In this document: positions 1 through 36,559 of the stretch, one piece after another
How the letters are laid out: the number at the start of each line of letters is the position of its first letter
Position numbering within the stretch: the stretch's first letter is position 1
Source: a virus
Length of the DNA stretch: 36,559 nucleotides
IMG/VR virus record: IMGVR_UViG_3300003690_001792
Location: 1-36,559 of that record
Direction: 5' to 3' (one strand)
Program-made: the position numbers and the translations under genes
The notes under the pieces: generated by a model
What the model saw: only the letters and a program-made list of their open reading frames with translations
Database searches by the model: none
What the model was told of the DNA's origin: nothing

Positions 1-2
1 GA

Positions 3-1793
3 GAGCGTGACGTGCTACTATGGGATGGTGAGGACGACAGGAAGGTTATACTTCAGTTCGCTGAATATATCAATGACTATGACCCAGATATAATTATTGG
101 TTATAACCTAGTGGGTTATGATATACCCCAAATACTACACAGAGCAAGGTTTCATGGTCTTAAGGGATATAAAAAGATTCTCAACCGTGATAATTCTACA
201 TGGGGTTGGGAACAAGGTAAGAACGATAAAGACCTTAAGATGAACGCTGGAGGGCGCATAATCCTCGATTTACTACGCTGGACTAGGCTAGACTACTCCC
301 TTTCGGGAATACCAAGAGGTCTTAAGTCTGTCTCACAGAGCTTTGGGTTAGAGCCTTTGGAGCTTGATTTCGCAAACAACGACCTTCTAGACTACAGCAT
401 AGAGGAGATAAATGACTATGTATTGTCTGATGTTGATTGTACCATGTATCTATATAACCACTACTTCCCTCAGATACAATATATCGCAGAGACCTTGTGT
501 GTGCCTTTAGCAACATATGTCAATGCTCCAGCTAGCTATATAACTAAGATACTTCAAGGCAGGTCTCTATTTAAGCAAGGGATGGTTACGCTAGACAGGA
601 ATAAAGAGCGACATCCAGAGATATATAAAGCTGATAAGGGTAACTATCAAGCTGCCCATATAGAGCTATATCAGCCCGGTTTCCACAAAAGAAATATAAA
701 AATAGACTTTGGTTCTTTTTATCCTTCTATCTCAATGATGCTTAATCTCGGACCAGACACTACGCAGATAGTAGGCTACGACGAGTATAGTGAGAACATA
801 GAGGAAAAAGATGGTATATTATATATCCCTGATAACAACGTAGGGAAGAGAATAATGGTGCGGATAGATAACTCTAAGAAGAGTTGTTTATACGATATGT
901 GTAGAGAGTTTAATGAAATGCGAAAGCCTTATAAACTTGGTAAGACGAGAGAAGATAAGAGCAAGTCCGATGCTCTTAAAATAATGGTGAATACCTTTTA
1001 TGGTGCCAATGCAAATCCTTATATTAGTTACGGTGATATGGGCGTTAGTATCACTATTACGTCAGTGGCACGCTGGCTACTTCTCTCGGCAGTATCAATC
1101 ATCAGAGGGAGATATGGCGAGGACGCTGTCGTTTATGTACATACGGATGGTATTAATTGCAATGTTGATGTTGATGCTACGTGGCTGGTCAATAGACTAA
1201 GAATACTACTGAAGCACACTTTCTCTAACTGTGAGCCCGAACATATAACAATGGATAAAGACTACTATAGAGAAGGAGTATGGTTACAGATAGGTAATTA
1301 TGTCCTTCGTAATGAAGATGGTAGTCTCACTAAACACGGTAGTACTTTCAAAGCTACCACCCGTTCTAAGTTCTACTTAAAGGTCTTAGAGAGACTAATA
1401 GAATCTAGAATCAATAATACTATAACACAAAAGTTTATAGATAGTTTATATAACTTGGAGGAATATGAGATTAATGACTTTGTTATGCGTAAGTCTATGG
1501 GAAGAGCAAAGGACGCTTATAAGTCACAGACTGATTTAATACTTAAGCTAATAGAGCAGGGAGAGGGTATAGGTATGACTCCTAGCGAAGGAACTACCTT
1601 CTACTATGTTAAAACCAGAGAAGGTTATAAGTTAGAATCTATGGTAAAGGATGTAGATGAGATAGATATAACTTATTACTGGGACACTATAAGCACCCTC
1701 CTTCAGAAGTTTACTCTACAGGAATGGATTAAAAAGTCACCTCCTTTAACCTTACTAGACAAGAAACAACAGAGTTTAATGGAGTGGATATGA
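3..1793 (+). CDS. polB: Family B DNA polymerase, 3' part (5' end outside window)
   Basis: Replicative DNA polymerase of the virus. The reading frame is open to the left edge, so the start and the Exo I region lie outside. Visible in order: Exo II (IIGYNLVGYDIP), Exo III (YVLSD), motif A (DFGSFYPS), motif B (KIMVNTFYG) and motif C (YVHTDG), then a PolB-like C-terminal thumb stretch ending ...LMEWI. All are as expected for a proofreading family B enzyme, except that motif C reads HTD where most relatives have DTD. The second Asp, the better-established metal ligand, is kept. The protein-primed subfamily is not suggested, because no clear TPR insertions are seen and a primase gene lies downstream. 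The last codons overlap the start of the next gene (ATGA) and form part of a 22-bp repeat. Assignment is secure; whether it is archaeal in origin is inference. Confidence 0.95.
   Translation, partial: ERDVLLWDGEDDRKVILQFAEYINDYDPDIIIGYNLVGYDIPQILHRARFHGLKGYKKILNRDNSTWGWEQGKNDKDLKMNAGGRIILDLLRWTRLDYSLSGIPRGLKSVSQSFGLEPLELDFANNDLLDYSIEEINDYVLSDVDCTMYLYNHYFPQIQYIAETLCVPLATYVNAPASYITKILQGRSLFKQGMVTLDRNKERHPEIYKADKGNYQAAHIELYQPGFHKRNIKIDFGSFYPSISMMLNLGPDTTQIVGYDEYSENIEEKDGILYIPDNNVGKRIMVRIDNSKKSCLYDMCREFNEMRKPYKLGKTREDKSKSDALKIMVNTFYGANANPYISYGDMGVSITITSVARWLLLSAVSIIRGRYGEDAVVYVHTDGINCNVDVDATWLVNRLRILLKHTFSNCEPEHITMDKDYYREGVWLQIGNYVLRNEDGSLTKHGSTFKATTRSKFYLKVLERLIESRINNTITQKFIDSLYNLEEYEINDFVMRKSMGRAKDAYKSQTDLILKLIEQGEGIGMTPSEGTTFYYVKTREGYKLESMVKDVDEIDITYYWDTISTLLQKFTLQEWIKKSPPLTLLDKKQQSLMEWI
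1772..1793 (+). repeat. 22-bp direct repeat, copy 1 (polB 3' end)
   Basis: Identical to 2238-2259. It contains the last polB codons, then GGAG, a 5-nt spacer and ATGA, so it holds both the polB stop and the ribosome-binding site and start of the HNH gene. Because it is constrained by polB coding, this is probably the original copy. Confidence 0.9.
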
Positions 1794-2245
1794 TGGAGTG
1801 TACAAAGTGTGGTAAGGATTTCCTCGCTAACTCTGAATTTTGGGAACGGCATCATTTAAAAGAAGGGTTGGCGGGTAGGTATTGTCGATGTAAAGAATGT
1901 ACTAGAGCCTGTAATAGAGCAAGATATCAAAAACCAAGAGGGTGGGGGCGCCAGACCATTTATAATAAGAAGGCTGCTGGACACGTTGTAGATATAGACC
2001 CTGAATATATAGAAAAAATATGGCCTAAAGATAATAAATGCCCATTGCTAGAGCGTGAATTCATAATAGGTATAGGAATACTAAATAAAATGTCACCAAC
2101 CCTAGATAGAATTATACCTGAAAGGGGATATATAAAGGGTAACGTGCTTATAGTATCACATTTAGCTAATCGTATTATGACTAACGCTACAGCGGAACAG
2201 GTAAGGCAAGTAGGAGAGAACATGGAAAAAATAAGAGGAGTTTAA
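1790..2245 (+). CDS. HNH / endonuclease VII-like nuclease, probably free-standing homing type
   Basis: Predicted DNA endonuclease of about 151 residues. The N-terminus carries a Cys-rich zinc site (CTKC at residues 4-7, CRCKECTRAC near 32-41). The C-terminal half has the phage HNH signature: W-x-D-x-x-CP, then SPTLDRI-x5-GYIKGN and an SHLAN asparagine. This pattern is typical of recombination endonuclease VII-like and mobile HNH proteins. The start is taken at the ATG overlapping the polB stop, because GGAG lies 5 nt before it; an in-frame GTG six bases earlier would sit inside the ribosome-binding site. The whole gene lies between two copies of a 22-bp direct repeat, which suggests it was inserted between polB and the next gene. 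Family assignment is good; homing activity is inferred from sequence type and setting. A resolvase role is the alternative. Confidence 0.85.
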   Translation: MMECTKCGKDFLANSEFWERHHLKEGLAGRYCRCKECTRACNRARYQKPRGWGRQTIYNKKAAGHVVDIDPEYIEKIWPKDNKCPLLEREFIIGIGILNKMSPTLDRIIPERGYIKGNVLIVSHLANRIMTNATAEQVRQVGENMEKIRGV

Positions 2246-2259
2246 TGGAGTGGATATGA
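2238..2259 (+). repeat. 22-bp direct repeat, copy 2 (HNH / GIY-YIG junction)
   Basis: Exact second copy of 1772-1793. Here it overlaps the HNH stop (TAA) and supplies GGAG, spacer and ATG for the downstream GIY-YIG gene. Together with copy 1 it brackets the HNH gene. Confidence 0.9.
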
Positions 2260-2714
2260 CCAGTCTGGAAAGCACTATACAAAGAATCAATGAAGTTACT
2301 GCGACTATGGAAGCGCAGGGATTGAAAATCACACCCGCAGTTGTGATTGAATTAACTAAGCAAGCACATAATGAATTTATGAAAGGACAAAGGCGTCCAG
2401 CAATGCCTGATTTTTCTGAACCTCGATTCAACACGGAGATGATAGTTTATACTATACAAAATTCGCAAAACCGAAAGGTATATATAGGAAAAACAATACG
2501 GACGTTCTGTAAGAGGTATTCTAAAGGCAAGTGGTGGAAACACACTGATAACATTGACCTTAATTTTGACCTTGAGAAATACGGATACGCTAATTTTAGA
2601 GTAAACATATACCGTTGTGATACTAAAGAACATATGGATGAAATGGAAGCTAGTTTAATAAGTATAAATTGGGCTGTACGTTATAATAGACGCCCTGAAG
2701 CAGAGGTGAAATAA
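2256..2714 (+). CDS. GIY-YIG endonuclease-domain protein
   Basis: About 152 residues. Residues 63-78 read MIVYTIQN...NRKVYIG, a GIY-YIG core in which the first tripeptide is YTI. It is followed by KTIRTFCKRY, with the expected conserved basic positions, and EMEASLI near 130, which fits the conserved metal-binding Glu. About 60 helical residues precede the nuclease domain and may bind DNA or a partner. Start: the ATG 5 nt after GGAG; a GTG at 2250 is in frame but overlaps that site. It ends in TAATG, shared with a possible next start. It may be a second free-standing homing nuclease or a nuclease with a role in viral replication; the sequence does not decide. With the HNH gene it makes two nuclease genes directly behind polB. 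Confidence 0.8.
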   Translation: MTSLESTIQRINEVTATMEAQGLKITPAVVIELTKQAHNEFMKGQRRPAMPDFSEPRFNTEMIVYTIQNSQNRKVYIGKTIRTFCKRYSKGKWWKHTDNIDLNFDLEKYGYANFRVNIYRCDTKEHMDEMEASLISINWAVRYNRRPEAEVK

Positions 2715-2917
2715 TGGGCCAATCTTTATATAGGTATATCACTCATAGGTTAAGTAGGCTAGATGTCTACGTCGGTAAGTACGGCATCTTTGGCCTACTA
2801 AGGAGAATAAAAAAATGGACGAAAATGATGGTAAAAAGCTTTCTGCGTTTCTTAAAGACGCTGAAGTCAAAGTGGTTTGGCGAGAAGAAGAAAGAACAAA
2901 AGTTGGGAGGGGAATGA
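2714..2917 (+). CDS. Possible small basic protein (uncertain)
   Basis: A 67-codon frame starting in a TAATG overlap with the GIY-YIG stop and preceded by a strong GAGGTGA ribosome-binding site. The product is very basic, with a Lys-rich C-terminal half (RRIKKWTK..., GEKKKEQK), and resembles nothing I recognise. Against it: the last third overlaps the better-supported gene at 2815 in another frame, and its 5' part covers a TATA-like element. Either it is a real overlapping gene or the segment to 2814 is a leader region for the next gene. Confidence 0.4.
   Translation: MGQSLYRYITHRLSRLDVYVGKYGIFGLLRRIKKWTKMMVKSFLRFLKTLKSKWFGEKKKEQKLGGE
2724..2732 (+). promoter_or_regulatory. Candidate archaeal TATA box
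   Basis: CTTTATATA, followed by GG, matches the archaeal TATA consensus exactly. It lies about 90 nt before the ATG at 2815, so initiation some 25 nt downstream would give a leader of roughly 60 nt. The same 11-mer stands before the tail tube gene on the other strand. CTTTATATA also occurs inside coding sequence near 8419, so sequence alone is weak proof. Confidence 0.4.
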
Positions 2918-3009
2918 TTACAAATGATGACGAAAATTTTGTATACCTCACTGGCGAAAAAGGGACGGTTATTGTTAATAAAAAGGACATTATCGCAATC
3001 AAGCAGTGA
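2815..3009 (+). CDS. Small protein, probably a beta-barrel
   Basis: 64 residues, starting 9 nt after AGGAG. I do not recognise a family. The pattern KVVWREE...VGRGMITNDDENFVYLTGEKGTVIVNKKDIIAIKQ alternates short hydrophobic strands with turns, as in small Sm-like or KOW-like barrels, so a nucleic-acid or protein-binding barrel is a reasonable guess but no more. It ends 6 nt before the glycosyltransferase start and is probably co-transcribed with it. Confidence 0.7.
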   Translation: MDENDGKKLSAFLKDAEVKVVWREEERTKVGRGMITNDDENFVYLTGEKGTVIVNKKDIIAIKQ

Positions 3010-3015
3010 GGTAGT

Positions 3016-4536
3016 ATGATGACGCTTCCCGCGACCTCGCAAACGACCAGTAACCTCACGCACATTGCAAACAAACTAAGCGGCCCAGAGACAGGAGAAC
3101 TTAAATGGGATACTCCTAAAAAGGGTAAGCTCAGAATAATGCCTATATCTGATAGCCCATGGGCTCCTACTGGGTTCGGTACTAATACTAAAAATGTATC
3201 TGCTATACTAACCAAAGATGGCCATCATATAGGTTATGCTGGTTGCCAAAATCCTGTGCATACTAAATATACTACTGAGTGGCCTTTAGGACAAACAGAG
3301 GAAAAGGTAGAGTGGGAGAACCTACCCATAATATATCCGGGCAAAGAACGGTTCGGAGAACAGAGTTTTAAACATTGGCAAGCAAATTTCAAGCCTGATG
3401 TGATATGGACACACTTAGATTTCCAAATGTTCCAGCATGTAGCTGGTTTCAAACGACCAGATAAAGCTACTATTCCCTTATATAATGACGATGGGAACTT
3501 ATTAAATAGAAAGGAACGGACTCAACTTGTAACTAATATGTTCAAAGAGATAGCCAAGGGCCCTCCGTGGAAATGGGCTGCTACTATTCCTTTTGATGGT
3601 CAACCATGCGTCAAAAGTTGGCAACAACTTCTCGACCAAATAGATTATAAAATTTGCATGTCTCGATATGGTCAATTGTGTATGGAAGAAGACTTCGTGG
3701 GGTGCGAAGAGTCATGGTATATGCCTCATGGTGTAGATTGTAATTTATTTAAACCTAAGCTCAATCCTATGTATGGGAAAAAACCATTGAAAGATATAGC
3801 TGATGGGGCATTTGTGGTAGGGTGCGTAGCAAGAAATCAACATAGAAAGAATATACCTCGGTTGGTAAAGGGGTTTAAAGAATTTGTAGATAGAAACGAT
3901 TTAGGACCAGACCAAGCTAAACTTATATTACATATGGATTGGAATGATGATATGGGTTGGAAATTCCCAGCCTTTGCACAAATATATAACTTAGAAAAAT
4001 ATTTGCTACCTACTTTGATGGGAGTCTTAGATGCAGGTGAAGCTCCAGATGAGGCAGGAATGGTTGATTTATACAATTGTATGGACGTCTTTGTCTTACC
4101 TACGGCTGGAGAAGGCTTTGGTATTCCCACCATAGAAGCGATGGCGTGTGGAGTGCCAGTGTGTGTGACAAATTATACTACAGCTTGGGAAATTATAAAA
4201 GAAGATAACCCAGAAACAGCGGTATTTCCTCTCTTTCCTTTAGGACAGGATGCTAAGGGTGGTAGAGACTACCTAGAAGAAGAAGATATATGTAAGGCTG
4301 GTATATTGCTCCCTTATAAAGATATGTGGTGGGACACACCTAAACGGGCATCCCCTCAAAGAGCCATATGTTCTGAAATAGCTATAGCCGATGCGCTAGA
4401 CTACTACTATCACAATCCAACGGAAAGAATTAAAGCAGGAAAAGCTGCAAGAGAAAAATGTAAAAAGGAATATGACTGGCCGGTATTAGAAAAACGATGG
4501 TTGGCACTGGCTAAGGTATGGGAGGAAAGAAAATGA
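3016..4536 (+). CDS. Glycosyltransferase, GT4 type (GT-B fold)
   Basis: About 506 residues. It would transfer a sugar from a nucleotide-sugar donor to an unknown acceptor, possibly modified DNA bases, a virion protein or a host surface glycan. The N-terminal Rossmann half carries the glycine loop WAPTGFGTNT near residue 49-58. The C-terminal half carries GCVARNQHRKNIPRLVKGF, the HMDWND strand and the donor-binding signature GEGFGIPTIEAMACGVP, with Glu at about 366 and 374 (E-x7-E). This is the standard GT4 retaining layout. About 35 low-complexity residues precede the first domain. The start is one of two adjacent ATGs after GAGGT. The stop overlaps the next start (ATGA), so it is coupled to the HAD-like gene. 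Fold is secure; donor and acceptor are unknown. Confidence 0.9.
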   Translation: MMTLPATSQTTSNLTHIANKLSGPETGELKWDTPKKGKLRIMPISDSPWAPTGFGTNTKNVSAILTKDGHHIGYAGCQNPVHTKYTTEWPLGQTEEKVEWENLPIIYPGKERFGEQSFKHWQANFKPDVIWTHLDFQMFQHVAGFKRPDKATIPLYNDDGNLLNRKERTQLVTNMFKEIAKGPPWKWAATIPFDGQPCVKSWQQLLDQIDYKICMSRYGQLCMEEDFVGCEESWYMPHGVDCNLFKPKLNPMYGKKPLKDIADGAFVVGCVARNQHRKNIPRLVKGFKEFVDRNDLGPDQAKLILHMDWNDDMGWKFPAFAQIYNLEKYLLPTLMGVLDAGEAPDEAGMVDLYNCMDVFVLPTAGEGFGIPTIEAMACGVPVCVTNYTTAWEIIKEDNPETAVFPLFPLGQDAKGGRDYLEEEDICKAGILLPYKDMWWDTPKRASPQRAICSEIAIADALDYYYHNPTERIKAGKAAREKCKKEYDWPVLEKRWLALAKVWEERK

Positions 4537-4895: not shown

Positions 4896-5167
4896 GAGCG
4901 GTTGGACCGCTAGTAAAAGTCACATGGAATGACGCAGCAGCGCAGATAAAGATACACAGAATCAATGCCTTAGACCCAACAGAACATCTAGCGGTATGTG
5001 AAACTATAGGGGAACTAATAATAGATGACCCAAAGGCTTTAATACTACTGCAACACTGGTCTGATACAGATGGCATAGACATCTTAGCAATCCCTAGGGA
5101 TTGGTGTCAAAAAATAGAAGTGATAAAGGAATGTATTACAGAGAGTTCGGAATCCCAGCCAGAATAG
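4868..5167 (+). CDS. Small protein of unknown function
   Basis: 99 residues if started at the ATG 9 nt after GAGGA (an earlier ATG at 4859 touches that site). It overlaps both the HAD-like gene and the primase gene. Features: KVTWNDAAAQ near 18-27, CETIGELIIDDPKALILL, and a C-terminal IPRDWCQKIEVI strand. This W-x-DA ... TIGxL ... IPxxW layout is common in short phage proteins that look like small beta-barrels, but I know no function for it. Confidence 0.65.
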   Translation: MDNQQGTGIGAVGPLVKVTWNDAAAQIKIHRINALDPTEHLAVCETIGELIIDDPKALILLQHWSDTDGIDILAIPRDWCQKIEVIKECITESSESQPE

Positions 5168-8071: not shown

Positions 8072-8116
8072 GTAGAGGCTCGTGTTACTGTAATGAACCG
8101 CAAAAGGAGTGGTCAA

Positions 8117-9979
8117 ATGTTTAAGAACGAAGTAGCAGAATTTATATATAAGAGAACATATTCTCGATGGATTGAAGAAGAAAAGAGACGGGAAGATTGG
8201 CCCGAAACGATAGATAGGTTTCTAGATTTTTTAATTTCAAAAAGAAAGGATATACCTGAGAAAACTATAAGGAAAATAAGGAAGTATATGCTAGAGTTTG
8301 CGGTTATGCCTTCCATGCGTTTCTTATGGGCTGGTGGCCCTGCGGCTGAATTTGATAACACATGTATATATAACTGCGCGTTTGCAAAGATAAACTCCGT
8401 GACGGCCTTCGCTGAATGTCTTTATATACTGATGTGTGGCACTGGGTTCGGATTTTCGGTAGAACAAGAAGAAACAGACAAGCTTCCTGTAGTTCCTGTT
8501 ATTAAATCGGGACGGACTTTAGAAAAAATAACACTTCCAGATACTAAAAAAGGATGGGCCGATTCAGTTAAGATACTAATGAATAGTCTCTATGAGGGGC
8601 AAAACCTCTATTTTGATTATTCATTAATAAGACTAGAGGGGGCTCGCCTCAAAACCATGGGTGGCCGTGCATCTGGCCCGCAACCCCTCATAAAACTGCA
8701 TGATTTCATTCGTGAAACTATGCATAACGCACAAGGAAGAAAACTCACATCTCTCGAATGTCACGATATCTGTAATCAGATAGCTGAGATTGTTGTAGTT
8801 GGTGGAGTACGGCGCAGCTCCCAAATATCCTTGAGCGACCTAAACGACACAGACATGCGCCATGCTAAGGAATGGCCTTACCCTATTAGACGCGCTATGG
8901 CTAATAATAGCGCTATATACAGGGAACGGCCCTCCGCAGCTGCATTTTTAAAGGAATGGGGGTCATTAGCTCTATCAGGCACAGGAGAGAGGGGCATATT
9001 TAATCTCCAAGCTGCACAGAGCAAAGCTCCATCACGCAGATATGCTCCATTAATCCAAGGCACTAACCCTTGTGGCGAAATAATGCTTAGAGACATGCAG
9101 TTCTGTAACCTGAGCGAAGTGGTGGTAAGGCCTAATGATGACCTCGACAGCTTATTAGACAAGGTAGAGACTGCTACATGGCTCGGGCTTATACAGAGCA
9201 CATTCACCTACTTTCCATACCTGAGAAAGTCATGGAAAAAGAATTGTGACGTAGAGCGGCTTCTAGGCGTCAGTTTGACCGGTCAGATGGATAACCCCAC
9301 CCTAATGAACTCTGAGGCCTTAAAAGCGCTTAAAAGCCGTGTATTGAGGATTTCTCGCAAGGCTTCTAAGTTACTAGGAGTAAACATGCCAACTGCCACG
9401 ACTTGCGTGAAGCCTTCAGGCACAGTCTCTCAACTCGTAGACTCAGCTTCAGGAGTGCACCCAAGGTTCTCTCAATATTATATCAGGAGATATAGGATAG
9501 CAGCCCGCGACCCTTTATTCAAAATGATGAAAGCTATGGGCATACCAGCTCATCCAGAAGTAGGACAGAAAAAGAAGAACGCCACTACATGGGTAGTAGA
9601 GTTTCCTATCAAATCCCCAGATGACTGTATCACTCGTAAAGATGTAACGGCCCTAGAGCAGCTGCACCATTATAAGAACTTGCAACATAACTGGTGCGAA
9701 CATAATGCCAGCATGACTGTGTACGTTAGAGAAGATGAATGGTTCGAGGTGGGTAACTGGGTCTATCAGAACTGGGACATCATAAATGGGGTATCCTTTT
9801 TACCTTATGATGGGGGACATTACGAATTAGCTCCCTATGAGGAAATAGACCATAGAACCTACGAAAGGCTTATAAAGAAGCTACCCCGAATAGATTATAA
9901 GCAATTGTCTAAGTACGAGCTAGAAGACAACACTCAGGGCAAAGCTGAGTATGCTTGTAACGGCGACAAGTGTGAGTAG
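8117..9979 (+). CDS. nrdJ: Class II (adenosylcobalamin-dependent) ribonucleotide reductase, monomeric RTPR-like
   Basis: 620 residues. Reduces ribonucleotides to deoxyribonucleotides for viral DNA synthesis, without oxygen, using B12. The active-site block TNPCGEI gives the thiyl Cys at about 319 and Glu at 321; FCNLSEVV carries a redox Cys. GGVRRSSQISL and the SASGVHPRFSQYYIRRYRI region are typical. The C-terminus YACNGDKCE supplies the CxxxxC pair that is re-reduced by thioredoxin-type donors. It is shorter than the roughly 740 residues of the Lactobacillus enzyme; which part is missing needs an alignment. Start: the ATG 7 nt after GGAG; an in-frame ATG at 8093 precedes that site and has no good one of its own. 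No small subunit or activase gene is needed or seen. Confidence 0.93.
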   Translation: MFKNEVAEFIYKRTYSRWIEEEKRREDWPETIDRFLDFLISKRKDIPEKTIRKIRKYMLEFAVMPSMRFLWAGGPAAEFDNTCIYNCAFAKINSVTAFAECLYILMCGTGFGFSVEQEETDKLPVVPVIKSGRTLEKITLPDTKKGWADSVKILMNSLYEGQNLYFDYSLIRLEGARLKTMGGRASGPQPLIKLHDFIRETMHNAQGRKLTSLECHDICNQIAEIVVVGGVRRSSQISLSDLNDTDMRHAKEWPYPIRRAMANNSAIYRERPSAAAFLKEWGSLALSGTGERGIFNLQAAQSKAPSRRYAPLIQGTNPCGEIMLRDMQFCNLSEVVVRPNDDLDSLLDKVETATWLGLIQSTFTYFPYLRKSWKKNCDVERLLGVSLTGQMDNPTLMNSEALKALKSRVLRISRKASKLLGVNMPTATTCVKPSGTVSQLVDSASGVHPRFSQYYIRRYRIAARDPLFKMMKAMGIPAHPEVGQKKKNATTWVVEFPIKSPDDCITRKDVTALEQLHHYKNLQHNWCEHNASMTVYVREDEWFEVGNWVYQNWDIINGVSFLPYDGGHYELAPYEEIDHRTYERLIKKLPRIDYKQLSKYELEDNTQGKAEYACNGDKCE

Positions 9980-28091: not shown

Positions 28092-28100
28092 TATATAAAG
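28092..28100 (-). promoter_or_regulatory. Archaeal TATA box before the tail tube genes
   Basis: CTTTATATA, followed by GG, read on the - strand, in one of the few real gaps (28023-28121) of the structural arm. Initiation about 25 nt downstream (near 28070) would leave a leader of about 50 nt with GAGGT before the ATG at 28022. Position and exact consensus make this the best promoter in the window. Confidence 0.65.
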
Positions 28101-31907: not shown

Positions 31908-32120
31908 TTATATATACCTCAACGCTGCAATCACGCCAGCCATCAGGGTGGCTAAAATACCCAAGCCCCAACGAAGCTGCGTCTTCATGTCGTCTTCCCA
32001 GACCTCATGGTGATGAAGATGATTATTAAACATAGTGTCAAAATCATCCATCTTATTGAATACAGTTTTGACGCGCTCGTCCATGCGTATCATGAGCTCG
32101 TCGCGCTCTCGTGCATTCAT
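31908..32120 (-). CDS. Small single-span membrane protein (XhlA/holin-accessory-like)
   Basis: 70 residues: a charged helix (RERDELMIRMDERVKTVFNKMDDFDTMFNNHLHHHEVWEDD) followed by one C-terminal membrane segment (WGLGILATLMAGVIAALRYI). This layout is shared with XhlA-type phage proteins and some Rz-like spanins, but no lysis enzyme is visible in the window. It could instead anchor something in the membrane during assembly. GGAG lies about 13 nt before the start, which is long, and a TATA-like CTTTAAATA sits 20-30 nt upstream. Confidence 0.5.
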   Translation of the reverse strand: MNARERDELMIRMDERVKTVFNKMDDFDTMFNNHLHHHEVWEDDMKTQLRWGLGILATLMAGVIAALRYI

Positions 32121-32151
32121 ATTTAAAGTATATCTCCTGTCATATTTAAAG
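32118..32151 (-). repeat. 11-bp direct repeat CTTTAAATATG, possible promoter
   Basis: Two identical copies, 23 bp apart (32118-32128 and 32141-32151), in the 40-nt gap after the fibre gene. The lower copy contains the start codon of the small membrane protein. The upper copy is TATA-like and at the right distance for a nearly leaderless message. Weak evidence. Confidence 0.35.
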
Positions 32152-32160
32152 GTTTCCTCG

Positions 32161-35100
32161 TCATAGTTGAATCCAAACGGGCCAATAATAATCAGTCGGC
32201 CCTACTGCTACTGTTAAGTATCCATCAGGAACCATACCTACTCCAGCCATATCAAAGAATTCTACAGCACTAACTCCTCCCCACGTTACGGGAACTAAAC
32301 CTACTAACGCTGTACCACCAGTACCACCATGAGCAATTGTTGCACCGCCGCCACCACTAGTACCTTGTGTACCCTGAGTTCCTGCTCCTCCTGTCGTTCC
32401 TGTAGTTCCCTGTGTGCCTGTCGTACCAGTTGTTCCCTGTGTTCCTGCTCCAGTTGTCCCCTGTGTTCCTGTAGTTCCCTGAGTCCCTGTCGTTCCCTGA
32501 GTACCAGTACCTAACTTTCCCTGAACTCCTTGAATACCTTGAATACCTTGAGAGCCCGTACCACCGCCACCAGTAATACCTTGGGTTCCTTGTGAACCAG
32601 CACTACCAGCACTACCATCATCACCAGTTCTAGTGAAATAATAAACAATGTCCTCTTCATCACTAAACGGTGGGTCTGCAAATCGAGCTACTGGAGTAAC
32701 ATCTATCTTGAAATAGCCAGTAGCTTCAGTAATTCCAGTTACTTGGCAAATGAAAAGTGAACCATCGGTTGAAGTTCTTGATTGAAATACTAGATGACCC
32801 TCAACAGTTGCAGTACTATCATCCCAGCTTCTCATAAAGAGCTGCATGTCTGTACCATACGCATCTTCATCATCAATATATATCTTTGTTACTGAAAGTG
32901 AAGTACTGTGGTTGAATCTAATTACTCCTTGGCCGGGGTCACTATCTGTAGTGGATGTATCAAATTCATAATTGACGCCTCCTCTATATCCAGCAGTACC
33001 CGTAGTTCCTTGTGTTCCTGCTCCTGTAGTGCCCTGAGTTCCTGTCGTTCCAGTTGTGCCTTGTGTTCCTGTAGTTCCCTGCGTTCCTGCTCCAGTTGTC
33101 CCCTGTGTTCCTGTAGTTCCCTGAGTCCCTGTCGTTCCCTGAGTACCAGCACCAGCTGTACCCTGAGAACCAGCTGGACCTATCTCACCACGTATACCTT
33201 GAATACCTTGTGTTCCTGCTCCCGTTGTTCCTTGAATTCCCTGAGTTCCTGTAGTTCCCTGAATTCCCTGTGTTCCTGTAGTTCCCTGCGTTCCAGTTGT
33301 GCCCTGCGTACCCGCTCCAGTAGTTCCCTGTGTTCCTTGAGCACCAGAGTCACCTAACTTTCCCTGAACTCCTTGAGTTCCTATTGTTCCCTGTGAACCA
33401 GCAGGTCCGGGCGCTCCGTCAGCACCCTGAGTACCAGCACCAGTTATACCCTGAGTGCCCTGACTACCCGGAGTACCCAGAATACCCCTCTGTCCCTGAG
33501 TTCCCTGAGACCCTTTATCTCCCGTTCTATTAAATTCTAAAGTAATTCTTTCACCATTAGCGAATGGTGGATTACCTGACCCAACTAATGGGTCCACATC
33601 TATCTGGAAATATCCTGAAGCCTCTGTAACTGTATCTACTTCCATAGATGCGTATGATGTATCACTGCCATCAGCAGATTGTATGATTATAACACCTTCT
33701 ATTGTACTTGAAGAATCGTCCCACGTACGCATCCAAGCTTGTTGGTCATTACCGTCTTCATCGGTGTCATCAATAAATATTTTTGTAACACTAGCAAATG
33801 TAGTGTGATTAAATCTTATATCTCCTGCGCCGGGGTCCGCATCAGCGGTAGCCGTGTCGAAAGTCCATGCTGTCCCCCCACGATAACCTGTAGTACCAGT
33901 CGTACCTTGAGTTCCTGTAGTTCCCTGAGTGCCTTGGGTGCCTGTATCACCAGTATCACCCTTGATGCCCTGAATTCCCTGAGTTCCTGTAGTTCCCTGT
34001 GTACCTTGAATACCTTGAGTTCCCTGAGATGCTGCTCCACCTTCCGTCCCTTGTGTTCCTTGAGAGCCCGTACCACCGCCAGTACCAGTAGCTCCTTGAG
34101 TTCCAGTAGTTCCGGTTGTCCCCTGTGTTCCTGTAGTCCCCTGCGTACCTTGAGTTCCCTTTATACCTTGAATTCCTTGTGTACCTTGAGTTCCCTGTGT
34201 TCCCGTAGTTCCCTGAGTTCCCTGTGTTCCTGTAGTTCCCTGCGTTCCAGTTGTGCCTTGTGTTCCTGTAGTTCCCTGCGTCCCTGTAGTTCCCTGCGTT
34301 CCTGTAGTTCCCTGAGTTCCTGTAGTTCCCTGAATACCCTGAGTTCCTGTAGTTCCCTGAATACCCTGAGTTCCCTGAGTTCCTGTAGTTCCTTGTATAC
34401 CTTGAGTACCTTGGGCTCCTTTATCTCCAGTTCTAATGAATTCTAAAGTAACTCTTTCACCATTACTGAATGGTGGATTTCCTGAACCAACAACTGGTGC
34501 TACATCTAATTTGAAATAGCCACTCTTCTCTTCGGTATCTGTCACTTGTAAAGAAGCGAATGATGTATCCGAACCTGTAGCTGATTGAATTATAATTGTT
34601 CCTAATACCGTTGATGAACTGTCGTCCCATGTTCTAAACCACGCCTGTTGGTCGTTTCCATCTTCGTCGGTATCATCTATATACATTTCGTCAACACTAG
34701 TAAACGTAGTATGATTAAATCTTATATCTCCTGCGCCGGGGTCCGCATCAGCGGTAGCCGTGTCGAAAGTATATGGTGTTCCTCCACGATATCCTGTAGT
34801 TCCTTGTATACCCTGAATGCCCTGCGTTCCTTGTGTTCCCGTAGTTCCTTGAGTTCCTTGAGTACCAGTAGTTCCCTGTGTTCCCTGTGTTCCCGTAGTT
34901 CCCTGAGTTCCTGTAGTTCCCTGTGTTCCCTGTGTTCCTGTAGTTCCCTGTGTTCCTTGAGTACCAGTAGTTCCCTGTGTTCCCGTAGTTCCTGTAGTTC
35001 CCTGTGTTCCCGTAGTTCCCGTAGTTCCCTGAGTTCCTGTAGTTCCCTGTGTTCCAGTTATACCTTGTATACCTTGAGTTCCCTGAGTACCAGTAGTTCC

Positions 35101-36559
35101 CTGAATTCCCTGAATTCCCTGAGTTCCAGTCGTGCCCTGTATTCCTTGAGTTCCTTGAGCGCCTGTTATACCTTGGATACCTTGAGTGCCAGTTGTGCCT
35201 TGAATTCCTTGTGTGCCTTGTGCGCCTTTATCTCCAGTCCTATTAAATTCTAGGACACATTGCTCTCCAGCACCAAATGGTGGATTACCTGAACCTATTA
35301 CTGGAGTAACATCTATCTTCCAGTATCCTGTAGCTTCAGTAACTCCTGTTACTTGCATCGAAGCATATGAAGCATCAGCACTACCCGCAGATTGTATAAT
35401 TATAGTACCTTCAATAGTACTAGTAGAGTCATCCCATGTATCATACCAGTCTTGCTGGTCTATACCTAAGGCATCCTCATCGTCTATATATAATTGAGTT
35501 ACGGAAGTAAACGTTGCGTGATTTAATCTAAATTCTCCAGCGCCGGGGTCTGCGTCTCCAGTGGAATTATCGAAATCATACCTAGTACCACCTCTTACTC
35601 CCCTAGTTCCTTGGGTACCTTGTGAACCACCAGTTACTACACCTGCTATTCCTTGTATACCTTGTATACCTTGTGTTCCTTGAGCACCTTGAATGCCCTG
35701 AATGCCTTGGGCTCCTGTAGCTCCCTGAGCGCCCGTTGTACCTTGAGTACCTGTAGTTCCCTGTGTGCCTTGAGTACCTGTAGTCCCCTGCGTACCTTGA
35801 GTTCCCTTTATACCTTGAATTCCTTGTGTACCTTGAGTCCCCTGTGTTCCTGTAGTTCCCTGTGTTCCTTGAGTACCAGTAGTTCCCTGTGTTCCCGTAG
35901 TTCCCTGAGTTCCTGTAGTTCCCGTAGTTCCCTGAGTTCCTGTAGTTCCCTGTGTACCAGTAGTTCCCTGTATGCCTTGCGTTCCCTGAGTACCAGTAGT
36001 TCCCTGTATGCCTTGCGTTCCCTGAGTACCAGTAGTCCCCTGTATGCCTTGCGTTCCCTGAGACCCTTTATCTCCCGTTCTATTAAATTCTAAAGTAATT
36101 CTTTCACCATTAGCGAATGGTGGATTAGCTGACCCAACTAATGGGTCCACATCTATCTGGAAATATCCTGCGGCCTCTGTAACTGCATCTACTTCCATAG
36201 ATGCGTATGATGTATCACTGCCATCAGCAGATTGTATGATTATAACGCCTTCTATTGTACTTGAAGAATCGTCCCATGTACGCATCCAAGCTTGTTGGTC
36301 ATTACCGTCTTCATCGGCGTCATTAATAAATATTTTTGTAACACTAGCAAATGTAGTGTGATTAAACCTAATGTCCCCAGCGCCGGGGTTCACATCAGCG
36401 GTAGCCGTGTCGAATGTCCATGCTGTCCCCCCACGATAACCTGTAGTACCAGTCGTACCTTGAGTTCCCTGAATGCCTTGAGTTCCTTGAGTTCCCTGCG
36501 TTCCAGTTGTGCCTTGTGTTCCTGTAGTTCCCTGCGTTCCTGTAGTTCCCTGCGTTCCT
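32161..36559 (-). CDS. Collagen-like fibre protein with five repeated globular domains (5' end outside window)
   Basis: At least 1465 residues, frame open to the right edge. Gly-x-x tracts of GTQGTTGTQGIQG type, very rich in Thr and Gln with almost no Pro, alternate with five homologous globular domains of about 125 residues at 36062-36441, 35222-35605, 34412-34796, 33509-33888 and 32614-32996. Each begins YRGG, has DADPGAGDIRFNHTTF, a Trp-rich DQQAWMRTWDDSSSTIEG strand and ends LEFNRTGDKG. After the last tract there is a short C-terminal domain (HGGTGGTALVGLVPVTWGG...YWPVWIQL). The tracts would form triple helices, giving a long trimeric fibre. It precedes the head-tail connector genes, where capsid decoration genes often lie, so a head or neck fibre is as likely as a tail fibre. 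The in-frame GTG at 36393 is inside domain 1 and is not the real start. Confidence 0.9.
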   Translation of the reverse strand, partial: GTQGTTGTQGTTGTQGTTGTQGTQGTQGIQGTQGTTGTTGYRGGTAWTFDTATADVNPGAGDIRFNHTTFASVTKIFINDADEDGNDQQAWMRTWDDSSSTIEGVIIIQSADGSDTSYASMEVDAVTEAAGYFQIDVDPLVGSANPPFANGERITLEFNRTGDKGSQGTQGIQGTTGTQGTQGIQGTTGTQGTQGIQGTTGTQGTTGTQGTTGTTGTQGTTGTQGTTGTQGTQGTTGTQGTQGTQGIQGIKGTQGTQGTTGTQGTQGTTGTQGTTGAQGATGAQGIQGIQGAQGTQGIQGIQGIAGVVTGGSQGTQGTRGVRGGTRYDFDNSTGDADPGAGEFRLNHATFTSVTQLYIDDEDALGIDQQDWYDTWDDSTSTIEGTIIIQSAGSADASYASMQVTGVTEATGYWKIDVTPVIGSGNPPFGAGEQCVLEFNRTGDKGAQGTQGIQGTTGTQGIQGITGAQGTQGIQGTTGTQGIQGIQGTTGTQGTQGIQGITGTQGTTGTQGTTGTTGTQGTTGTTGTQGTTGTQGTQGTTGTQGTQGTTGTQGTTGTQGTQGTTGTQGTQGTTGTQGTQGIQGIQGTTGYRGGTPYTFDTATADADPGAGDIRFNHTTFTSVDEMYIDDTDEDGNDQQAWFRTWDDSSSTVLGTIIIQSATGSDTSFASLQVTDTEEKSGYFKLDVAPVVGSGNPPFSNGERVTLEFIRTGDKGAQGTQGIQGTTGTQGTQGIQGTTGTQGIQGTTGTQGTTGTQGTTGTQGTTGTQGTTGTQGTTGTQGTQGTTGTQGTQGTQGIQGIKGTQGTQGTTGTQGTTGTTGTQGATGTGGGTGSQGTQGTEGGAASQGTQGIQGTQGTTGTQGIQGIKGDTGDTGTQGTQGTTGTQGTTGTTGYRGGTAWTFDTATADADPGAGDIRFNHTTFASVTKIFIDDTDEDGNDQQAWMRTWDDSSSTIEGVIIIQSADGSDTSYASMEVDTVTEASGYFQIDVDPLVGSGNPPFANGERITLEFNRTGDKGSQGTQGQRGILGTPGSQGTQGITGAGTQGADGAPGPAGSQGTIGTQGVQGKLGDSGAQGTQGTTGAGTQGTTGTQGTTGTQGIQGTTGTQGIQGTTGAGTQGIQGIRGEIGPAGSQGTAGAGTQGTTGTQGTTGTQGTTGAGTQGTTGTQGTTGTTGTQGTTGAGTQGTTGTAGYRGGVNYEFDTSTTDSDPGQGVIRFNHSTSLSVTKIYIDDEDAYGTDMQLFMRSWDDSTATVEGHLVFQSRTSTDGSLFICQVTGITEATGYFKIDVTPVARFADPPFSDEEDIVYYFTRTGDDGSAGSAGSQGTQGITGGGGTGSQGIQGIQGVQGKLGTGTQGTTGTQGTTGTQGTTGAGTQGTTGTTGTQGTTGTTGGAGTQGTQGTSGGGGATIAHGGTGGTALVGLVPVTWGGVSAVEFFDMAGVGMVPDGYLTVAVGPTDYYWPVWIQL
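33509..33888 (-). repeat. Fibre globular domain, copy 4
   Basis: Near-identical to copy 1 at 2553 bp distance, a multiple of three, so recombination between them would remove or add 851 codons in frame. Confidence 0.85.
36062..36441 (-). repeat. Fibre globular domain, copy 1
   Basis: About 370 bp nearly identical to copy 4 (33509-33888). I count roughly 16 differences by eye, far fewer than between other copies. One difference changes the usual ADADPG to ADVNPG. Confidence 0.85.

Follow-up and report, generated by a model that had tools for sequence, protein, structure and literature searches.

Among the closest described systems are the free-standing endonucleases of T4-type phages, for which co-conversion and the separation of cleavage and insertion sites are established (PMC2988022). 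The seg and mob genes of T4-type phages resemble the genes described here in being small GIY-YIG or HNH genes with conserved genes on either side, often close to replication or nucleotide genes; many are promoterless inside an operon, and they spread with co-conversion of neighbouring DNA (PMC2988022). A further likeness is to the Cluster J mycobacteriophages, in which clean intergenic HNH insertion was seen by comparison of close relatives (Courthouse 46, Omega 51) and one site is used by unrelated HNHs (PMC3706429). With the arrival of Omega 51 the 3' end of lysin A, the gene upstream, was altered, a change ascribed to faulty repair or to the context of a distant donor (PMC3706429). Association with a DNA polymerase, as found here, is also known for the HNHs of Vi06, ULINTec4, HTVC119P, S-TIP28, and DSS3_MAL1 and for I-PfoP3I, which lies in a DNA-polymerase intron (PMC3428280). 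Homing endonuclease genes near DNA polymerase genes (PMC10448857) and classes of homing (PMC12724721) have been described, and the F-CphI and Endo VII-motif homing endonucleases are, like the candidate enzyme here, free-standing in phage (PMC6083498).

The locus examined here lies at the beginning of a 36,559-base virus fragment from IMG/VR (IMGVR_UViG_3300003690_001792), the whole of which we refer to as the window. It begins with polB (3..1793, forward strand, as are all features of the locus), which encodes the C-terminal 596 aa of a family B DNA polymerase (Pfam DNA_pol_B_exo1 1e-14 and DNA_pol_B 2e-11; PHROG 262 3e-23), has its 5' end off the contig and keeps an intact TGA at 1791-1793. 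Behind it stand an HNH gene (1790..2245) and a GIY-YIG gene (2256..2714). Whereas I-PfoP3I is intron-borne and some of the other polymerase-associated HNHs lie inside the polymerase gene, the arrangement here is intronless and the family B polymerase is uninterrupted. The cultured-phage genes share no more than about 30-40% protein identity with the HNH of the window. An endonuclease encoded by a group I intron was ruled out, as the window has no match in Rfam, group I introns included, and polB reads through to its stop; the window also contains no tRNA. In contrast to the seg and mob genes, entry appears to have been exactly at the stop codon, with the tail of the invaded gene left behind as a 22-bp repeat, in what is possibly an archaeal virus. 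Omega 51 lost 35 bp of its target (PMC3706429), whereas here 22 bp were gained as a direct repeat, together with a diverged polB tract of about 160 nt.

The HNH-type endonuclease gene encodes 151 aa, with an N-terminal CxxC...C-x-C-xx-C motif and a C-terminal SPTLDRIIPERGYIKGN...HLANR core. The protein matches the phrog_3322 endonuclease (E 1.4e-22, residues 2-147 on profile positions 4-150 of 162) and is weakly similar to phrog_1035 endonuclease VII (8e-11), although the DHDH signature of F-CphI (PMC6083498) is absent. Pfam gave no match for the protein, a PDB sequence search with the HNH profile no relevant match, and the AlphaFold model is poor (pLDDT 57). Across 14 relatives N118, S123, and N127 are invariant and D106/R107 nearly so, within a conserved core of SxxLDR...GY..GN...S..AN; the canonical first histidine of classical HNHs is absent from the window protein, and the related protein of locus L017 has an H at that position. 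Cultured-phage matches found by tblastn have about 27-41% identity, and 7 of the 13 inspected are located within or immediately behind DNA polymerase genes (Vi06, HTVC119P, ULINTec4, S-TIP28, AhaP_PT2, VTCCBPA_211, DSS3_MAL1), the remainder adjoining thymidylate synthase, ribonucleotide reductase or other genes. Between the contigs that carry the gene, dN/dS is about 0.5-0.8, with one pair above 1 (few sites), and this weak constraint fits a gene that would be of low value to its host. Given the clean empty site in close relatives, we regard the product as a putative free-standing homing-type endonuclease, an identification that belongs to the explanation we favor with moderate confidence.

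The HNH gene is bracketed by two copies of GAGTTTAATGGAGTGGATATGA, at 1772..1793 and 2238..2259, which are 100% identical over 22 bp and spaced 466 apart; the whole record holds no third copy. The left copy comprises the end of polB, a GGAG ribosome-binding site and the HNH ATG overlapping the polB TGA, and the right copy comprises the HNH stop TAA (2243-2245), GGAG and the GIY-YIG ATG (2256). In both, GGAG is followed after a 5-nt gap by an ATG that overlaps a TGA (ATGA). No longer exact direct repeat occurs in positions 1-4500 of the window, where 300 first-order shuffles gave a maximum of 16 nt, and the 22 nt shared by the flanks of the HNH open reading frame compare with a maximum of 14 at random same-spaced positions. 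An earlier, sequence-only reading of the window had described the repeat, and had read each copy as a ribosome-binding site, a start codon and the polB stop; both descriptions hold, the repeat lying far above the shuffle and position nulls. The identity of the copies is a property of the window, as the other carriers show one mismatch (L003, L004, L031) or two (L005) between their copies. The placement of the gene exactly between the copies needs a refinement, in that the repeat brackets an intact gene with its stop codon inside the right copy. That polB was left intact and the downstream genes translatable also agrees with what we see, since the polB end is complete and each downstream gene keeps a GGAG-ATG signal from which it would be translated.

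Relatives were found in IMG/VR by scans with polB, HNH, GIY-YIG and DNA patterns. Five contigs carry both the HNH and the GIY-YIG gene (the window, L003, L004, L005, and L031), and all five have two repeat copies. Four others have the GIY-YIG gene without the HNH gene (L006, L007, L008, and L030), and in all four a single copy runs directly into the GIY-YIG gene (ATGAACAGTCTAG, with the ATGA overlap). These single-copy junctions support the proposal, made beforehand from the window, that the HNH gene is an insertion; the junction itself had been foreseen correctly as one 22-mer leading straight into the GIY-YIG gene, but with ATGACCAGTCTG downstream in place of the ATGAACAGTCTAG that is found. 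The relatives without HNH have polB at 96% amino acid identity (where full length) and GIY-YIG at 93%. The polB sequences of L006, L007, and L008 are identical, so the empty state probably represents one genotype.

The last part of polB upstream of the HNH gene (about -174 to 0; 1617..1790) is strongly diverged. Carriers differ from L008 at 15.6-16.7% of the last 180 polB nt and at 3.4-4.9% of the first 1608 compared positions, and among themselves by 1.1% in the tail. The last 180 of 1788 nt hold 28 of the 59 fixed differences between carriers and L008, a density reached in 0 of 20,000 codon-position-matched permutations. Fisher p values are 4e-7 to 8e-11. In 150-nt blocks the tail reaches 19-20% divergence against 0-11% elsewhere in polB, and dS rises from 0.13-0.20 in the body, where dN/dS is about 0.06, to 1.05-1.25 in the tail. 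This leads us to revise the suggestion that the insertion duplicated its own translation signal: compared with the relatives that lack HNH, the polB tail before the HNH gene is itself foreign. On the other side, the GIY-YIG gene and the leader behind it diverge from those relatives by 8-13%, with no step at the junction, an even 8-11% along the GIY-YIG side and 96% identity in the first 80 nt. A diverged flank such as co-conversion would leave is thus present on the left side only, and is to be read against mosaicism elsewhere. Over the first 300 polB nt L003 has 3 differences from L008 and 28 from L004, and over polB 1050-1350 both L003 and L004 have 1-2 differences from L008 and 9-10 from the window. 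The carriers therefore have mixed polB backgrounds and a common tail, and HNH and tail act as a single unit superimposed on these backgrounds. Other sharp divergence peaks (about 20%) between close relatives occur at window positions 3003-3153, 4203-4353, and 4953-5100. Since the genomes are mosaic and these downstream peaks are comparable, the island at the polB end could be a patch left by ordinary recombination. Outgroups do not tell which of the two tail versions is the foreign one (41 vs 43 cells), and a 25-mer from the carriers' polB tail matched known carriers only, without pointing to a donor virus.

We compared 42 related polB 3' ends, comprising the window and related loci, and assigned nucleases to groups by profile scans of group representatives. 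Thirteen ends are empty, 26 have nuclease-like genes and three have other genes (L070, L072, L076). In the empty loci a conserved leader, which contains a CTTTATATA-like box, comes right behind the polB stop. The 26 filled ends include the pair found in the window (HNH-A + GIY-A, five) and its GIY-YIG gene alone (GIY-A, four), and L017, which carries an HNH of 58% amino acid identity behind polB without a GIY-YIG gene. There are four other phrog_3322 architectures (L012/L024/L015/L025/L019/L020/L021; L016/L022; L027; L057), phrog_2255 HNHs (L071, L080) and a GIY-YIG-like protein with at best a weak T5orf172 match (L014, L018, L091). The inserts begin on the polB stop or a few bases from it, most with an ATGA or TAATG overlap. 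By this comparison the polB stop is an insertion hotspot, repeatedly invaded by unrelated nucleases.

The 22-bp repeat is restricted, among hotspot loci, to the group with both HNH and GIY-YIG. At other insertions (11 cultured-phage, five other IMG/VR HNH and nine other hotspot loci) the longest flanking word is 11 nt, about the random level, and at the other hotspot inserts tested no flanking repeat exceeds 9 nt; the 22-bp repeat is therefore particular to the HNH and GIY-YIG junction. A 9-nt match at the HNH end of L017 (AAACTCTAG) was considered as a remnant repeat and rejected, as L027 has the same AGGGATAACTTTATATA context after a different insert and chance is likelier. The commonest occupant of the hotspot is a compact HNH of 128-132 aa (MPARKYKDPFGRL...) in L012, L015, L019, L020, L021, L024, and L025. 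Between L019 and L020, which both carry it, the last 160 polB nt are 81% identical and the preceding 160 nt 94%. One contig binned as a Maricaulis MAG (L091) has a related polB (69% amino acid identity) whose stop codon is likewise occupied by a GIY-YIG-like insert; it is probably a viral contig wrongly binned, or else a hint of the host.

The GIY-YIG gene of the window encodes 152 aa resembling homing endonucleases (phrog_314, 9e-14; Pfam GIY-YIG 0.0067, below the cut-off). Searches of phage records with the protein gave no match, nor did a nucleotide search of the same records. The gene shows zero amino acid change among carriers and a dN/dS of 0.11 against L008, and it is absent from the empty loci, such as L051 and L009. 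Behind it, the conserved leader (TAATGGGNCAATCTTTATATA...; 2711..2814), which has a TATA-like box at 2724-2732 and directly follows the polB stop in empty relatives, leads to a small conserved gene (MDENDGK..., 64 aa; 2815..3009), the next shared gene past the hotspot, which nearly every related locus has downstream. When empty and filled junctions are compared, the original stop/ATG context of the leader proves to be now the GIY-YIG stop; a TAATG resembling the empty polB stop likewise serves as the insert's stop in several loci, L014 and L018 among them. Because such a TAATG now ends GIY-A, the most suitable reading is that this gene was itself inserted earlier and that the window shows two stacked insertions. 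In L023, L026, and L029 the leader between the hotspot and the MDEN gene contains a small hairpin (e.g., GGACAGCACGTGTGCTGCTCC) and an overlapping short open reading frame of non-conserved length.

The explanation that we consider reasonably probable is that a related virus, with HNH behind its own polB, was the source from which the gene came into an existing polB/GIY-YIG junction by repair-coupled transfer. The HNH product would nick or cut the polB tail of the recipient, either close to where the repeat starts or upstream of that point. The upstream end would then be repaired from the donor through polB homology, bringing in the donor's last ~160 polB nt and the HNH gene; the tract of about this length is observed, while the process that brought it is our reconstruction. 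The donor would have no GIY-YIG gene, so that the downstream end would find no homology, and the 3' end of HNH would be joined without homology to the surviving polB tail of the recipient. The product would have a donor polB tail before HNH, forming the left copy, and the recipient's own 22-nt tail after it, forming the right copy, so that the repeat would arise without a copying step. We thus think that the left copy probably arrived with HNH from a donor polB and that the right copy is probably the recipient's original tail. The last 17 polB nt are the same in both versions, so the repeat itself does not show which copy came from where. In the product polB would end intact, HNH would start on the polB stop and take its own stop from the right copy, and the GIY-YIG start would be kept; the structure would survive on account of what each copy supplies, either polB-end coding or a GGAG-ATG signal. 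Since both 22-mers are intact, an enzyme that does not tolerate its own site cannot have a recognition site wholly within the 22-mer; a site that reaches into the diverged polB tail, or that the insert interrupts, is to be expected.

The order of events could also have been the reverse, with HNH present first, as in L017, and GIY-YIG arriving later from a virus with polB next to GIY-YIG, together with 22 nt of that polB's tail and with its downstream end joined through homology in the leader, so that the right copy would be the imported one. The final junction sequence is the same under both orders, and the related HNH of L017 does stand behind polB without GIY-YIG, but the diverged polB tail upstream of HNH would go unexplained, the divergence of GIY-YIG and leader is lower and uniform, and the relatives without HNH already have GIY-YIG at the same exact position; we consider this order unlikely. 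Loss of an ancestral HNH gene by recombination between the repeats would make the state without HNH the derived one. Direct repeats favor precise excision, yet excision would leave the carrier's polB tail, and L006-L008 differ from it at 28-30 of the last 180 positions. The tails thus contradict simple excision products unless a second, later tail replacement is assumed, and the origin of the repeat itself would stay unexplained, which makes this account highly improbable.

A perfect 22-bp repeat is what an insertion that copied 22 bp of its target would leave, by a transposase or by repair of a staggered cut and with no polB tail from a donor, or what a tandem duplication would leave. For HNH enzymes a stagger of 22 bp is long, the copies enclose nothing but the HNH gene, with no transposase or recombinase, and a transposon with target-site duplication was rejected on this ground and on the lack of repeats longer than 9 nt at other hotspot inserts. 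In the loci examined no 22-bp target duplication accompanies further insertions of the same HNH, and the upstream polB island would have no explanation, so we give target duplication little credence. It is improbable, too, that HNH is a domesticated phage nuclease, no longer mobile, with the repeat kept for translation only. Some phage HNH genes did become packaging factors (PMC10448857), but here the gene is present or absent among close relatives and weakly constrained, and several unrelated nucleases use the one site. Going beyond the repair-coupled transfer that we prefer, we tentatively suggest that the polB stop is a dedicated landing site at which different nucleases stack, each rebuilding a stop, a ribosome-binding site and a start so that expression of the polymerase and of every gene downstream is kept, and that the repeat is the trace of one-sided homing whose right end was joined without homology.

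Elsewhere in the window, TTTATATA/TTTAAATA boxes at 2724-2732, 28092-28100 (minus strand), and 32143-32150 (minus strand) stand upstream of gene starts; GAAACCTTTAAATA, for instance, lies about 30 nt before the gene at 32120. The TATA-like motif was observed 6 times against 1.2 expected. The boxes resemble archaeal TATA promoters, and the virus may infect an archaeon. The window also encodes a class II (B12-dependent) ribonucleotide reductase (8093-9979; PHROG 367, E 8e-157) and, in the structural-gene region, a 1410-aa protein with collagen triple-helix repeats (32161-36393, minus strand; Pfam E 2e-86).

Free-standing homing endonucleases and co-conversion are already known; new here are the duplicated tail with its ribosome-binding site and the two stacked nucleases. 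In the literature searched (open-licence papers only) we found no report of a direct repeat of a host gene tail formed in this way. How homing endonucleases reach new neighborhoods without harming host genes is poorly documented in nature. In this group of related viruses the empty, single-nuclease and double-nuclease states all survive, the foreign polymerase tail is measurable, and the repeat allows one particular order of events to be put to the test. One gene end used by several HNH architectures and two GIY-YIG-like types amounts to a natural collection of nucleases, which may target the same conserved polymerase sequence. If the proposed origin is true, one-sided homing would be a route by which homing endonucleases enter new neighborhoods.
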